DNA from: Sedimenticola sp.
GTDB taxonomy: Bacteria > Pseudomonadota > Gammaproteobacteria > Chromatiales > Chromatiaceae
Length of the DNA: 41,626 nt
Reading direction: 5' to 3'
Assembly: GCA_026196475.1 (NCBI GenBank)
Contig: JAPHTA010000144.1
Span: forward strand, 1 to 41,626
The notes beneath the pieces are model-generated. The model saw only the letters and a list, made by a program, of their open reading frames with translations, was not told the origin of the DNA and searched no databases. Below are positions 12,869 to 30,257 of the stretch, piece by piece. A program made the position numbers and the translations under genes. Numbering within the stretch: position 1 is the stretch's first letter; the number at the start of each line of letters is the position of its first letter.

Positions 12869-13198
12869 ATGCCTGTGGACAAGCTTGTGATCTATTGCAC
12901 CTGCCCGGACCGGTCCATTGCCGAACGGATTGCCGGCAAACTGGTCGAGGCACACCTTGCGGCCTGCGTCAGCATCATGGCGCCGGTCTCCTCGGTGTAC
13001 AGCTGGCAGGGGAAGATCGAGACGGAGGAGGAGTGTCTGCTCATGATCAAGACCCGGCAAAGCCGGTATCCTGACCTGGAACAGACCCTTACCTCACTCC
13101 ATCCCTATGAACTTCCGGAGATCATCGCGGTCCCTGTAGTGCGCGGACTGCCGGCCTATCTCCACTGGATTGACGAATGTACACAACAACAAGACTGA
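12869..13198 (+). CDS. cutA: Divalent-cation tolerance protein CutA
   Basis: CutA is a trimeric, PII-like small protein historically linked to copper tolerance. The 109-residue protein contains LVIYCTCPDRSIAERIAG, LAACVSIMAPVSSVYSWQGKI and the conserved HPYELPEIIAVPV. It is the first gene of a cutA-dsbD-tlpA-like run, as in E. coli (cutA-dipZ), and its end overlaps the dsbD start by 22 bases. A possible -10 (TGTATC) lies very close upstream of the ATG, so its promoter is uncertain. Confidence 0.95.
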   Translation: MPVDKLVIYCTCPDRSIAERIAGKLVEAHLAACVSIMAPVSSVYSWQGKIETEEECLLMIKTRQSRYPDLEQTLTSLHPYELPEIIAVPVVRGLPAYLHWIDECTQQQD

Positions 13199-15504
13199 AC
13201 CGGTTTCTCCTGCTCATCCTGCTGCTATGGATCCCGTTCTCCGGCCAGGCCCAATCCCAGGAGGAGGAGTACCTGCTGCCGCAGCAGGCTTTCCGGCTCT
13301 CCGCCCAGCCTCTCGACAGCGACACCCTCCAGGTCACCTGGGACATCGCCCCGGATTACTACCTCTACCGCAGCAAGATCCGACTCGACAGCCAGACCCC
13401 CGGCATCGATCTGGGCGAGGCCCGCTTCCCTGCGGGGAAGATCAAGCAGGACCCCTATTTCGGTGATCAGGAGGTATACCGCAACAAGGTCAACATCGAG
13501 GTGCCGCTCAGGCGCTCGGCGGACGCCGGAGAGAGCCTCACCCTGGCCACGGTCTCCCAGGGCTGTGCCGATGCCGGACTCTGCTACCCGCCGCAGAAGG
13601 AGTCGGTTACGATCCAACTGGCAGCCCTTAGCACGGCAGCTCCACCGGCAGCCAAGACCAACGGTCTGGCTGCACTGGGCAACCTGGGCCAGGCACTGGG
13701 ACTGCAACAGCAGGACGATATCCCGACCCCGGAGCAGGCCTACCAGTTGAGCGCCCGGGTCGAGCAGCCCGACCGCCTGCTGCTGGAGTGGAAGATCGCC
13801 CCGGGCACTTACCTCTACCAGGACAAGCTCAAGGTGGCACTGGCAGAGGGCGAAGAGGTGCAACTGGGCCCCATCCAGCTGCCCCCGGCCGAGATCAAAC
13901 AGGATGCGCTGCGACCGGATGGCACCCTGGGCGACCTGCCGGTCTACCACGACCGGATCTCGCTACCGGTCCCTCTGTTGCGGGGACGCCAGGCCGGTGG
14001 ACCGATCACCCTGCAGGTCAACTACCAGGGCTGCGCCGAGGTCGGCGTCTGCTACCCGCCGATCAGCAAGCGGGTGAGCCTCGACCTGCCGCCGCTGGCC
14101 AGCGCCCCCTCTCCCCTGCAGCAGGCCCAGCAGGCGGTGATCGCCAGTGAATCCGCTCTGCCTCCGGAGCCGGCGGAACCGGCGTCCAACGCGCCGGTCT
14201 CCGAACTGGACCAGATCACCTCCACCCTGGCCGGGGGCGACACCTGGCTGATCATCCTGCTCTTCTTCGGCCTTGGGCTTGCGCTCTCCCTGACGCCCTG
14301 CGTGTTCCCGATGATACCGATCCTCTCCGGCATCATCGCCGGGCAGGGCAGCAGCATCACCACCCGCCGCGCCTTCACGCTCTCCCTGGTCTACGTGCTG
14401 GCGATGTCGATCACCTACACCGCCGCCGGAGTTCTCGCCGGCATCTTCGGGCAGAACCTGCAGGCCGCTTTCCAGAACCCCTGGATCCTCAGCTTTTTTG
14501 CCCTGGTCTTCGTCCTGCTGGCGCTCTCCATGTTCGGCTTCTACGAGCTACAGTTGCCGAGCCGATGGCAGAGCCGGCTGGCCGAGACCAGCAACCGGCA
14601 GCGCGGCGGCAGCCTGACCGGCGTTGCGGTGATGGGCTTCCTGTCGGCACTGATCGTCGGCCCCTGCGTGGCACCGCCCCTGGCCGGGGCCCTGATCTAT
14701 ATCGGCCAGACCGGTGACGCCGTGCTCGGTGGGGTGGCGCTGTTCACCCTGGCCATGGGCATGGGCGCACCGCTTATCCTGATCGGCACCTCCGCCGGCA
14801 AATACCTGCCCCGGGCCGGCAGCTGGATGGACAAGGTCAAGGCGGTATTCGGCGTCGGCATGCTGGCCGTTGCCATCATCCTGCTGGAACGGATCCTGCC
14901 GGCAGCGATCTCCATGCTGCTGTGGGGCGTTCTGATGGTGGTCAGCGCCATCTACCTCGGCGCCCTGAAGGAGCTGGAGGTGGAAGCCTCCGGCTGGGAC
15001 CGGCTGTGGAAAGGCCTTGGCGTGGTGATCCTGATCTACGGCACCCTGATGCTGGTGGGGGCCGCCGCCGGCGGCAAGGACACGGTGCAGCCCCTGCGCG
15101 GCCTGATCGCCGCCAGCGGCGGCAGCGAGGCGGCTCACCTGCAGTTCAAGCGGATAAAGAGCGTCGATGACCTGCAACGGGAGGTGACCGCGGCGAGCGC
15201 CGCCGGCAAGCCGGTGATGCTGGACTTCTACGCCGACTGGTGTGTCTCCTGCAAGGAGATGGAGCGCTACACCTTCAGCGATCCCAAGGTGATCAGCGCG
15301 CTCTCCGGCGCCGTCCTGCTGCAGGCCGACGTCACCGCCAACGACGAGCAGGACATTGCCCTTCTGCAGGGACACTTCGGGCTGCCCGGCCCACCCAGCA
15401 TCATGTTCTACGGCCGCGACGGGGTGGAACGCAAGGGCTACCGGGTGGTCGGCTTCAAGGGCCCGGATGAGTTTGCACAACACGTGAGGAGCGCCCTGCA
15501 ATGA
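13177..15504 (+). CDS. dsbD: DsbD thiol:disulfide interchange protein with duplicated N-terminal domain
   Basis: DsbD passes electrons from cytoplasmic thioredoxin across the inner membrane to periplasmic acceptors. E. coli DsbD is about 565 residues; this one is 775. After a signal peptide (about 1-26) there are two successive nDsbD (Ig-like) domains, about 32-150 and 183-305. Each has its own redox pair: QGCADAGLCYPP (C130, C136) and QGCAEVGVCYPP (C286, C292). Then follows the eight-helix transmembrane domain with C375 (LTPCVFPMIP) and C497 (VGPCVAPPL), and a C-terminal thioredoxin domain with DWCVSCKE (C689, C692). All catalytic cysteines are intact. The start overlaps cutA; the stop overlaps the next gene (ATGA). 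Confidence 0.96.
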   Translation: MYTTTRLNRFLLLILLLWIPFSGQAQSQEEEYLLPQQAFRLSAQPLDSDTLQVTWDIAPDYYLYRSKIRLDSQTPGIDLGEARFPAGKIKQDPYFGDQEVYRNKVNIEVPLRRSADAGESLTLATVSQGCADAGLCYPPQKESVTIQLAALSTAAPPAAKTNGLAALGNLGQALGLQQQDDIPTPEQAYQLSARVEQPDRLLLEWKIAPGTYLYQDKLKVALAEGEEVQLGPIQLPPAEIKQDALRPDGTLGDLPVYHDRISLPVPLLRGRQAGGPITLQVNYQGCAEVGVCYPPISKRVSLDLPPLASAPSPLQQAQQAVIASESALPPEPAEPASNAPVSELDQITSTLAGGDTWLIILLFFGLGLALSLTPCVFPMIPILSGIIAGQGSSITTRRAFTLSLVYVLAMSITYTAAGVLAGIFGQNLQAAFQNPWILSFFALVFVLLALSMFGFYELQLPSRWQSRLAETSNRQRGGSLTGVAVMGFLSALIVGPCVAPPLAGALIYIGQTGDAVLGGVALFTLAMGMGAPLILIGTSAGKYLPRAGSWMDKVKAVFGVGMLAVAIILLERILPAAISMLLWGVLMVVSAIYLGALKELEVEASGWDRLWKGLGVVILIYGTLMLVGAAAGGKDTVQPLRGLIAASGGSEAAHLQFKRIKSVDDLQREVTAASAAGKPVMLDFYADWCVSCKEMERYTFSDPKVISALSGAVLLQADVTANDEQDIALLQGHFGLPGPPSIMFYGRDGVERKGYRVVGFKGPDEFAQHVRSALQ

Positions 15505-16019
15505 AAGCCCGCCTAGCGAAACTCTCCCTTCTGCTCCTGCTGCTTCTGCCGCTGGCAGGCTGTGAACAGGAACCGGCCGGTCCGCAACTGACCGGTGGCG
15601 CGGAAGCCACCCTGCCGGCATTTCAGTTTCCAGACCTGGAGGGGGAGATCCGCCAAAGCAGCGACTGGCAAGGCAAGGTGCTGGTGGTCAACTACTGGGC
15701 CACCTGGTGCCCACCCTGTCGCAAGGAGATGCCACTCTTTGTCGAGACCCAGAAACGCCTTCAGGAGCGGGGCCTGCAGTTTGTCGGTATCGCCATCGAT
15801 GACCTGCACCTGGTACAGGATTTCGTGGACGTGTACAACATCAACTTTCCGATTCTGATCGGCAACGCGGAAGCCGTGAGACTCTCCACCCGGATGGGAA
15901 ACCGCTTCGAATCGCTCCCCTTCACCGCCATCTTCGACCGCGAGGGTAACACCCGCTACATTCAGGCCGGCGAGGTGACCGCCGAGGTACTGGAGCGGGA
16001 ACTGGAGCCCCTGCTGTAA
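15501..16019 (+). CDS. TlpA-like thioredoxin-fold lipoprotein
   Basis: The 172-residue precursor has a lipobox LPLAGC (lipid Cys at 21), so it is probably membrane-anchored and faces the periplasm. The mature part is a TlpA/ResA-type thioredoxin domain with the active site WATWCPPC (C70, C73) and the cis-proline region ESLPFTAIF. It overlaps the dsbD stop, so DsbD is the likely electron donor. Substrates of such proteins include apocytochrome c and other periplasmic thiols; the target here is unknown. Confidence 0.9.
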   Translation: MKARLAKLSLLLLLLLPLAGCEQEPAGPQLTGGAEATLPAFQFPDLEGEIRQSSDWQGKVLVVNYWATWCPPCRKEMPLFVETQKRLQERGLQFVGIAIDDLHLVQDFVDVYNINFPILIGNAEAVRLSTRMGNRFESLPFTAIFDREGNTRYIQAGEVTAEVLERELEPLL

Positions 16020-26889: not shown

Positions 26890-27233
26890 ACCTCTCTCCG
26901 GATTGGTGGCCGCGCCACTCTGGCAAGCGCCCTGAAGCACAGGAAACGCCCTCTCAAAAGTGCGACGGCCATTGAAGAAATGCCGATTCTATGCGATTTT
27001 ATGCGGTTCGTGCCACGGCTTCTCCGGTAAGCCTGTCAAGTAACGGCCGATCCCGCGACGGGGAGCGAAAAGGGGTCCCACCGGGACCACCCGTCCCAGG
27101 GACTGAACGCCGTGCAGACAGGTGTCCCGTAAACGAGCTTCCGGGGCAGGCCGCCACAGGGGAGCGGCACAGGGTGGGCCCGGCCGGTGCGGTCTCACCA
27201 ACCCGACAAACCAGAATAATTCAGAGATATGTC
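26890..27233 (+). other. amgK-lptD divergent intergenic region
   Basis: 344 bases without a supported gene. The ORF track runs an 81-residue extension of LptD through it, but that peptide (rich in Pro, Gly, Arg) is not signal-like. The region must hold the promoters of both genes. TTGAAG and TTTTAT-type AT-rich stretches occur near 26973-26996, without a clear consensus pair. A nested stem structure lies at 27057-27103. Confidence 0.6.
27057..27103 (+). promoter_or_regulatory. Structured leader upstream of lptD
   Basis: An outer stem GACGGG/CCCGTC (27057-27062 with 27090-27095) encloses an inner hairpin GGTCCC-ACC-GGGACC (27074-27088). An overlapping short palindrome GTCCC-A-GGGAC (27093-27103) could compete with the outer stem. 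It lies 130 bases upstream of the proposed lptD start and could be a 5' UTR structure. No known riboswitch is recognised. Confidence 0.35.
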
Positions 27234-30200
27234 GTGCCTGGAATAAGAAGGATTCTACCGCTTGCCATCAGTGGACTGCTGCTGATTCCGAACGTCCACG
27301 CCGCTGCCAAGTGGGATTGCCGGGCCACTGTCAGCGGCGAATGGGAATGCCTGAAAGACGGCATTCCGGTCGCCGCTGAAAGCGGGCCGGGCGGCACGAT
27401 CACTCCCGAACGACAGGCGGACGAACCCGCCGAAGAGCAGCCGACCAGCCGCGAAGAGTCCATGGCCCTGCCTGGCCCGACCCCGCTGGTTGCCGCCGAC
27501 CCCACTGCCGAAGCGGATAGCCAGGCAGATGCGGACGTTCCCTCGCCACCCCCGGGCGGGACCGGCAACAGCGATACACCAACTGCTGACACCACGGCCC
27601 AGCCGGCCACCGAAGCGTCCCTGACGGCACAGGAGACCGGCGAAGCCGCCACCGGAACGGAGACAGAAGCGCCGACCGAAACGCTGACGCCAGCCGCGTC
27701 GACAGATCGTGCCGGGCCCGGGAAGCGCGACACTTCAGACAACAGCGCATCCGTCAAAGCCGCCCGGGAAGCCCCAGCTCAACCCACCGCCGATGCAGGG
27801 GCAATCGAAAACGCGAAGCGAAGGGCTGAGCCGGAGATGACAGCCCCAACGCAGGCAACAATGCCCGAGTCGTCGACACTCCGGGCAGAGAACAAGAGTA
27901 GCGATACCACCGATGGCGGCGCGGCCGCCTCAACCACTCCGGCCGTCTCCAGCCAACCCGCCGCCGATGCCCCGTCAGCGGCCGTGGAAACCGGCAACCG
28001 GTCCGCCAAGGCGGCGAGCGAAACAGTGCCGCCTGCCATCGCAGCGCCGGCCAGCCCGGTCCTGCCTGAAGCCACTGCGGCCGATCCACGTCTCGACCGC
28101 GGCCTGAACTGGAACCAGTGCAGCGGCGGGCGCCTGCCGCTGATCGCACGGCCGGCACCGGCTGACGACGACAGCACTCGCATCGAGGCCGATGCCGCCG
28201 ACCTCTACCGCAACGAGAACCGGGCCGAGTTTGCCGGTAACGTCCGGATCGAGCACGCCAACGAACGCCTCGAGGCCGACCGCGTCGACTACGACCGGAA
28301 CAGCAATACCCTGGACGCCGAGGGCAGGGTCTACCTGGAGCAGCCGGGGCTGCGGATCAGCGGCGACCGGCTCCACTACCAGTTGGACCAGCGGTCGGGC
28401 AACACGCAGCAGGCCGAGTTCCGGCTCACCGACGCCGCGGCACGGGGCACCGCCGCCAGCGCCGAAATGCTCAACGCGGAGCAGTCCCGTTACAGCCAGG
28501 TCACCTACACCACCTGCCCGCCCGGCAACAGCGACTGGCTGATCAACGCCGGAGAGCTGGAGATCGACCAGGAGACCGGGGTCGGCGTCGCCCGCGACGC
28601 CAGCGTCAGCTTCAAGGGGGTACCGTTCATCTACCTCCCCTATGCCACCTTCCCGATCGATGACCGCCGGAAATCGGGCTTCCTGCCACCCTCGATCGGC
28701 ACCTCCGAGAATACCGGTGCCGACATCTCGATCCCCTACTACCTCAACATCGCCCCGGCCATGGACGCCACCCTGACCCCGCGCATCATGAGCAAGCGGG
28801 GGCTGATGCTGGGCGGCGAGTTCCGCTACCTGACCGAGAAGAGCAAGGGGGTCGTCCAGGCCGAACTGCTGCCCAATGACAGCGAGCGGGCCACGGGTCA
28901 AAGCAGCAGCCGGGGCGCGCTCAATATCAAGACCGACGGCAGGCCGGGAGACCGCTGGTACTACGACGTCGATCTAAACTATGTTTCGGACGATGACTAC
29001 CTGGACGATCTGGGCAACAGCCTGGCCGCCACCAGCGCCAGGCACCAGGAGCGGCGGGGCGACATCCGCTACCAGGGGGATGGATGGAGCCTGCTTGGCC
29101 GCGCCCAGCACTTCCAGACCATTGACCGCTCAATCGCCATCACAGACCGTCCCTACTACCGGCTGCCGCAGCTGCTGCTGAACCTGGAGAAGCCGGACCA
29201 GGCCATGGGACTGACCTACCACCTGCAGTCCGAGTACGTGCAGTTCGATCACAGCTCGGAGAGCAAGGTGAAGGGACGTCGCCTGGACCTGCAGCCCGGG
29301 ATCAGCCTGCCACTGCGACAGCCATGGGGTTTCATCACGCCCAAGCTGAGCCTGCGCCATACTCGCTACGACCTGGAGAACCAGACACCCGGACTGGACA
29401 GCAGCCCGAGCCGCACCCTGCCGACCCTGAGCCTGGACGGCGGGCTCTACTTCGACCGCCCGGCGAACTGGTTCGGTAACGCCATCACCCAGACCCTGGA
29501 GCCGCGCCTGTTCTACCTCTACACCCCATACGAGGACCAGAACGCGATCCCCGACCTGGACACCAGCGAGCTCGGCTTCAGCTTTGCCAACCTGTTCCGC
29601 GAAAACCGATTCAGCGGTGGCGACAAGGTCGGCGACGCCAACCAGCTGACCACCGCCCTCACCACCCGCAGCCTGGACCGCGCGAGCGGCGAGGAACTCT
29701 TGCGCGCCAGTATCGGTCAGATCTTCTATTTCAGGGACCGGGACGTACAGCTGCAGTCCACGGGAGCGGCCGTTAACGACGACAGTTCGGCCATCGTCGC
29801 CGAAGCATCAGCCCGGCTGAGCCGGAGCTGGCGACTGCAGGGCGGACTTCAATGGAATCCCCACGAACTGGGCGGCAGGACCGAGCGGAGCGCCCTCGGT
29901 TTGCACTACGACGACCGCAAGGGGCGTATCCTGAACCTGACCTACCGCTACACCGAGAGCTCGATCGAGCAGACCGACCTTTCGGCGCGCTGGCCGGTCA
30001 GTTCCCGGGTACACCTGGTGGGACGCTGGAACTACTCACTGCTGCATGAGAAATCCATGGAGCGCTTTGCCGGCATCGAGTACGACAGCTGCTGCTGGAT
30101 CACCCGTTTCGTGGTCAGGGACTACCGCTCTGATGCCAACAGCGAGGGCAACCTGGCGCTGTTCCTGCAGCTGGAGCTGAAGGGACTGACCAGCCTGGGC

Positions 30201-30257
30201 GACAAGATTGACCAGCTCCTTGAGCGCGGCATCCTCGGCTATCGCAGCGACGACTGA
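27234..30257 (+). CDS. lptD: LPS-assembly protein LptD with long disordered N-terminal insert
   Basis: LptD is the outer-membrane barrel that, with LptE, inserts LPS into the outer leaflet. I choose the GTG at 27234, which gives a clean signal peptide (MPGIRRILPLAISGLLLIPNVHA); the track ATG at 26991 adds a non-signal leader. The 1007-residue precursor is well above the E. coli length (784). After AAKWDC and WECLKDG comes a low-complexity Ala/Thr/Glu/Pro segment of about 230 residues (about 47-280), then an LptA-like domain (IEADAADLYRNENRAEFAGN onward, about 305-450), then the barrel. The CC pair in YDSCCWITRFVVRDY corresponds to the conserved disulfide cysteines; partners are probably WDC/WEC and downstream cysteines. 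Followed by surA, which helps fold LptD. Confidence 0.93.
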   Translation: MPGIRRILPLAISGLLLIPNVHAAAKWDCRATVSGEWECLKDGIPVAAESGPGGTITPERQADEPAEEQPTSREESMALPGPTPLVAADPTAEADSQADADVPSPPPGGTGNSDTPTADTTAQPATEASLTAQETGEAATGTETEAPTETLTPAASTDRAGPGKRDTSDNSASVKAAREAPAQPTADAGAIENAKRRAEPEMTAPTQATMPESSTLRAENKSSDTTDGGAAASTTPAVSSQPAADAPSAAVETGNRSAKAASETVPPAIAAPASPVLPEATAADPRLDRGLNWNQCSGGRLPLIARPAPADDDSTRIEADAADLYRNENRAEFAGNVRIEHANERLEADRVDYDRNSNTLDAEGRVYLEQPGLRISGDRLHYQLDQRSGNTQQAEFRLTDAAARGTAASAEMLNAEQSRYSQVTYTTCPPGNSDWLINAGELEIDQETGVGVARDASVSFKGVPFIYLPYATFPIDDRRKSGFLPPSIGTSENTGADISIPYYLNIAPAMDATLTPRIMSKRGLMLGGEFRYLTEKSKGVVQAELLPNDSERATGQSSSRGALNIKTDGRPGDRWYYDVDLNYVSDDDYLDDLGNSLAATSARHQERRGDIRYQGDGWSLLGRAQHFQTIDRSIAITDRPYYRLPQLLLNLEKPDQAMGLTYHLQSEYVQFDHSSESKVKGRRLDLQPGISLPLRQPWGFITPKLSLRHTRYDLENQTPGLDSSPSRTLPTLSLDGGLYFDRPANWFGNAITQTLEPRLFYLYTPYEDQNAIPDLDTSELGFSFANLFRENRFSGGDKVGDANQLTTALTTRSLDRASGEELLRASIGQIFYFRDRDVQLQSTGAAVNDDSSAIVAEASARLSRSWRLQGGLQWNPHELGGRTERSALGLHYDDRKGRILNLTYRYTESSIEQTDLSARWPVSSRVHLVGRWNYSLLHEKSMERFAGIEYDSCCWITRFVVRDYRSDANSEGNLALFLQLELKGLTSLGDKIDQLLERGILGYRSDD

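Follow-up and report, generated by a model that had tools for sequence, protein, structure and literature searches.

What does a DsbD protein do with two copies of the domain through which its electrons leave? In Escherichia coli, electrons pass from cytoplasmic thioredoxin to the membrane domain of DsbD, then to cDsbD, and finally to nDsbD, and what is known of the DsbD mechanism comes from E. coli and Neisseria, whose proteins have one outlet. In the 41,626-nucleotide stretch of Sedimenticola sp. DNA analyzed here (contig JAPHTA010000144.1; hereafter, the window), the dsbD open reading frame on the forward strand (13177-15504) was stop-free, and its translation yielded a protein of 775 amino acids with two nDsbD domains. 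The whole protein scored 734.8 bits against the NCBIfam model NF001419 (protein-disulfide reductase DsbD), for which the cut-off is 330. Judged by the defining features tested in the sequence (NF001419, the nDsbD cysteine pair in duplicate, the cysteines of the membrane domain, and a CxxC thioredoxin domain), the protein is a DsbD. The features of the locus, all on the forward strand, are as follows.

12869-13198, forward strand: cutA (CutA1; PF03091, 6.7e-39), overlapping the start of dsbD, with conserved synteny
13177-15504, forward strand: dsbD, encoding a 775-aa protein-disulfide reductase with nDsbD in two copies (NF001419 DsbD)
13264-13617, forward strand: nDsbD copy 1, residues 30-147 (E 2.9e-33), with a canonical cap loop; AlphaFold pLDDT mostly 94-98
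13450-13464, forward strand: cap loop of copy 1, D92-P-Y-F-G96, corresponding in the alignment to E. coli D68-E-F-Y-G72, with its D and G unchanged in 61/61
13564-13584, forward strand: redox pair of copy 1, C130...C136 (E. coli C103/C109)
13618-13713, forward strand: linker joining the nDsbD copies, poorly conserved; model pLDDT down to ~40-55
13714-14094, forward strand: nDsbD copy 2, residues 180-306, membrane-proximal (E 5.3e-26); corresponds to the nDsbD of bacteria that have just one, as judged by tree and AU tests
13903-13932, forward strand: cap loop of copy 2, D243-AL-RPDGT-LG252, with a 5-residue insertion at 246-250 (13912-13926)
14032-14052, forward strand: redox pair of copy 2, C286...C292
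14245-14898, forward strand: DsbD_TM membrane domain (PF02683, 3.8e-104) with invariant C375 and C497
15145-15495, forward strand: cDsbD thioredoxin domain, C689-V-S-C692 (C689/C692 invariant), matching cDsbD structures (E 8e-35)
15501-16019, forward strand: tlpA, TlpA/ResA-like lipoprotein with WCPPC, its start overlapping the dsbD stop by 4 bases (ATGA)

Because of this 4-base overlap of stop and start, dsbD and tlpA are probably co-translated. The gene order of the locus, lipA ... fxsA(-) cutA dsbD tlpA aroQ accB accC, was kept in many relatives, with one nDsbD copy or with two alike, and its cutA-dsbD part is like that of E. coli.

A preliminary description of the sequence had proposed that nDsbD is present twice in complete form, with a separate CxxxxxC pair in each copy, ahead of the usual membrane and thioredoxin domains. 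The first part was confirmed to the residue (C130/C136 and C286/C292), and the downstream domains were found as described. The Pfam analysis identified DsbD_N twice, DsbD_TM at residues 357-574, and Thioredoxin_7 at residues 664-745, and the profile search of the genome placed DsbD_N at 13264-13614 (E 2.9e-33) and 13714-14082 (E 5.3e-26), with no other DsbD_N match in the genome. The name "input domains" given to these copies was mistaken, as nDsbD is the domain through which electrons exit. Each copy alone matched the solved nDsbD structures of E. coli and Neisseria, copy 1 with a best E of 1.2e-20 and copy 2 with one of 6.5e-15, so the presence of two nDsbD domains is far beyond chance. The AlphaFold model of the tandem module had a mean pLDDT of 90.3 (both domains mostly >90, linker ~55) with a pTM of 0.53, and that of the full chain had a mean pLDDT of 86.2 with a pTM of 0.58; no confident mutual placement of the domains was obtained in either model, and the two nDsbD domains are predicted to be flexible beads on a string.

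The conservation of the two copies was then compared. All four nDsbD cysteine columns were invariant in the alignments of 61 full-length and 76 tandem-module homologues, and in 106/106 tandem proteins neither copy had lost its CxxxxxC pair. Seven of these proteins escaped the regular expression and were found on inspection to hold the pair (as CxxxxxCF, with an RGC motif, or with additional spacing). The mean column entropy was 2.00 bits for copy 1 and 1.96 bits for copy 2, that is, the copies were equally conserved. Since the pairs are kept throughout and conservation is equal, the alignments support the view that neither copy is a spacer and that both would be redox-competent outlets. The copies also differed consistently in certain residues, for example S/Y versus Y/F ahead of QGC and, following the cap loop, R versus H.

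A larger difference was found in the cap loop. In E. coli nDsbD, the loop D68-E-F-Y-G72 covers the active site and opens for partners, and in a survey of 134 genera, F or Y occupied position 71 in 85% (PMC7347389). The aromatic cap, formed in E. coli by F70/Y71, has its equivalent in the DPYFG of copy 1, whereas the D-AL-RPDGT-LG of copy 2 contains no aromatic residue. The PDG insertion of the copy 2 loop was present in 16/61 aligned homologues, and its P and G were invariant in those 16. In the Sedimenticola/Chromatiaceae-like group, copy 2 followed the pattern D..[RK]PDG[ST]xGD, which is five residues longer and mostly lacks the aromatic; outside this group, the copy 2 loop had the canonical length, the insertion being found mainly within it. 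Loss of the redox pair or of the cap loop from one copy in relatives had been named beforehand as the sign of a non-catalytic spacer. The pair was never lost, and the copy 2 loop proved to be remodeled, not lost, in one clade.

The preliminary description had also called for a domain search and a phylogeny to tell a recent duplication from an ancient one, and these identified the two nDsbD domains and pointed to an ancient event. Within one protein, copies 1 and 2 shared a mean identity of 37% (range, 26-50%; 38% in the window), which was about the identity of the same copy between species, and the between-species identity was similar for both copies. A recent duplication is ruled out by these values. 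In the domain tree, the copy-1 domains clustered, and the single nDsbDs fell among the copy-2 domains. With copy 1 constrained to one clade, the likelihood was 5.28 above that of the unconstrained search (AU p = 0.56). A tree in which the copy-2 domains had to form a clade of their own, without the singles, was worse by 72.8 log units (AU p = 0.069). Three single-domain proteins of Sedimenticola-like bacteria (L019, L020, and L022) nested within the Sedimenticola copy-2 clade and carried its PDG-type insertion, which marks them as losses of copy 1. In the tree of the DsbD membrane domain, the tandem and single states required 18 changes, at least 5 of them on well-supported branches. Because the single nDsbDs fall among the copy-2 domains, the trees indicate that the duplication is ancient and that the membrane-proximal copy 2 is the E. 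coli-type counterpart; we read the history as one ancient duplication followed by repeated loss of the outer copy (copy 1). As the root of the tree is not known, some single DsbDs may predate the duplication.

The tandem form was widely distributed. In the search of named genomes, it was found in Sedimenticola, Chromatiaceae, Methylococcales, Thiomicrospira, and other Gammaproteobacteria, as well as in a few assemblies labeled Betaproteobacteria. Tandem proteins made up 85/110 fetched homologue ORFs, a set biased by similarity. When the GTDB class was sampled evenly, DsbD_N was present in 168/185 genomes. Among the stronger matches, which were those listed, 103 genomes had a long dsbD ORF, and 55 of them were scored as tandem: for 37 the listing showed two matches, and for 18 the score rested on the length of the ORF. 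Retrieval of the sequence for 40 of the tandem calls showed that two were in fact single. Thus, among the matches listed, approximately half of the sampled genomes have the tandem form, and in Gammaproteobacteria the doubling is both ancient and frequent, not rare. If about half of the sampled genomes use a two-outlet DsbD whose active sites are both strictly conserved, the textbook picture covers just part of the family. Two of the sampled genomes had two dsbD genes each (G055, L136 and L168; G072, L118 and L173), and in G055, one of them was tandem and the other single.

The reading that we prefer, and hold to be somewhat probable, is that the two copies are parallel redox-competent outlets on one hub, duplicated once long ago, with copy 1 as the accessory outlet, and that they differ in their clients. 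Electrons would flow as in E. coli from cytoplasmic thioredoxin to the membrane domain (C375/C497) and on to cDsbD (C689/C692). From there, we infer direct transfer to either nDsbD copy, both of which are carried on flexible linkers, and each nDsbD would in turn reduce periplasmic thioredoxin-fold proteins (DsbC, CcmG, and TlpA/ResA-like proteins). Copy 1 would be the added outlet, and copy 2 the copy retained in at least one lineage after the other was lost. In the Sedimenticola/Chromatiaceae-like proteins, the gating and partner choice of copy 2 are probably unlike those of copy 1, because its cap loop is enlarged and the aromatic shield mostly absent. The consistent differences between the copies, together with the clade-specific insertion in the copy 2 loop, make it plausible that the copies serve different acceptors. 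The preferred reading is also favored by the larger number of TlpA/CcmG-like proteins in tandem genomes, for which the figures are given below. Having both copies in one protein offers a clean internal test of the role of the cap loop in partner choice.

The electrons might instead be relayed in series, from cDsbD to copy 2 only and then from copy 2 to copy 1, which would serve clients far from the membrane (or in the reverse order). Copy 1 does sit one domain further from the membrane, the linkers are long, and the copy kept in L019, L020, and L022 is the membrane-proximal one, as the first member of a relay would be. However, we know of no exchange between one nDsbD and another, and copy 1 has lost nothing of the canonical cap loop or of the active site, as expected if it meets cDsbD directly. 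In addition, the cap loop of reduced nDsbD has been described as opening for legitimate partners (PMC7347389). We consider a series relay unlikely.

Similarly low is the probability we give to redundant outlets, in which the duplication raises throughput and the clients are identical. The equal conservation of the copies would suit this explanation, as would the higher numbers of TlpA/CcmG-like proteins and of c-type cytochromes in tandem genomes. Tandem genomes encoded 7.2 TlpA/CcmG-like proteins per genome, compared with 4.15 in single genomes (MWU p = 2e-8). In a phylogenetic regression with genome size, for which the tree was the poorly resolved DsbD gene tree, the tandem effect on this count had p = 0.0005 (p = 0.004 under full Brownian motion), and p = 0.0009 when cytochrome c and glutaredoxin counts were added. 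Higher counts in tandem genomes were also obtained for cytochrome c (PGLS p = 0.04) and for glutaredoxin, a cytoplasmic family chosen as the negative control (PGLS p = 0.01). An independent-pairs test of client number, with just 5 well-supported pairs, was not significant. It is suggestive that client number tracks the tandem form, the correlation being observational and the glutaredoxin control not clean. No link with the tandem form was seen for the presence of CcmG (strong matches were lacking in 16/80 genomes, which fell 8 and 8 into the two original groups), and none is claimed for DsbC (39/40 vs 33/40, p = 0.057). In the genome of the window, DsbD, a DsbC_N protein, and CcmG were each encoded once, and TlpA/CcmG-like proteins numbered seven (E<=1e-5). 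This genome also contained a second, short DsbD_TM/CcdA-like protein (G000:C217:6440-6967, L202; 277 aa frame, 35.6 bits). Identical clients are harder to reconcile with the copy-specific residues and the clade-specific insertion, which point to divergence, and with an old duplication whose copies stayed distinct and were not homogenized. Parallel outlets with differing clients remain our preferred reading, and it could be carried further: a branched hub in which one cDsbD feeds two outlets with different cap-loop gating and separate client sets, and in which outlet number would have followed client number as the outer copy was repeatedly lost. We regard this extension as possible but doubtful.

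The co-encoded TlpA-like lipoprotein had been named as a candidate partner of one copy, and copy 1 might be dedicated to it. The tlpA start codon overlaps the dsbD stop, and in the close relatives carrying L019, L020, and L022, copy 1 and the adjacent tlpA were both missing while fxsA-cutA-dsbD-aroQ-accBC was kept. However, the relatives with L006 and L009 have a tandem DsbD without an adjacent tlpA, and tlpA adjoined single dsbD genes about as often as tandem ones (29/38 tandem vs 25/42 single, p = 0.15; in named genomes, 44/62 vs 8/12, p = 0.74). With no significant association, the partnership was unsupported as a rule, a specific link between the tandem form and tlpA was rejected, and a dedicated copy 1 appears very improbable.

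For one copy to be a purely structural spacer, devoid of redox function, would have a possible parallel in an Ig-fold part of the N-terminal region of ScsB. This reading is refuted at the sequence level by the cysteines in both copies of every tandem protein examined and can practically be dismissed, although Foldseek weakly placed ScsB 6c29 over both copies (TM 0.30/0.35; the best matches were nDsbD structures).

Proteus mirabilis ScsB (6c29) was reportedly described by Furlong and colleagues in 2018 as having a tandem immunoglobulin-fold N-terminal domain. Of the ScsB Ig domains, just one is known to be redox active. The window protein is like ScsB in having two Ig-fold domains ahead of a DsbD-like membrane domain and unlike it in that both are DsbD_N by sequence and carry a redox pair. 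The profile search with the tandem module identified DsbD nDsbD chains only and did not match the ScsB N-terminal domain. Compared with E. coli and Neisseria meningitidis DsbD (nDsbD-TM-cDsbD), the protein has all three modules and all catalytic cysteines but differs in its second, tandem nDsbD, its enlarged copy 2 cap loop, and a length greater by ~200 aa. It shares its architecture with the tandem DsbDs of Sedimenticola, Chromatiaceae, Methylococcales, Thiomicrospira, and others, the closest homologue in the named-genome search being that of Sedimenticola selenatireducens (79% identity), and among these proteins the copy 2 PDG insertion is mainly a feature of the Sedimenticola/Chromatiaceae-like group. 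No paper discussing a DsbD with tandem nDsbDs was found in the open-access literature searched. The tandem form is presumably visible in domain databases, so the architecture is not categorically new, and it is its function that is undescribed in the open-access literature.

Two further observations were made. On plasmids, at least 2000 records matched DsbD by tblastn, mostly from Escherichia and Klebsiella, and only 68 covered 80% of the query; we take these matches to be probably the dsbD fragment known beside blaNDM. Elsewhere in the window, the LptD ORF (26991-30257, forward strand; 1088 aa) has an LptD_N domain that starts only at about residue 398, preceded by a long, apparently disordered stretch rich in Ala, Pro, Thr, and Glu that comes after what is likely a signal peptide (approximately residues 85-105). 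The true start of LptD is probably internal, near residue 80, which would still leave an insert of ~280 aa.
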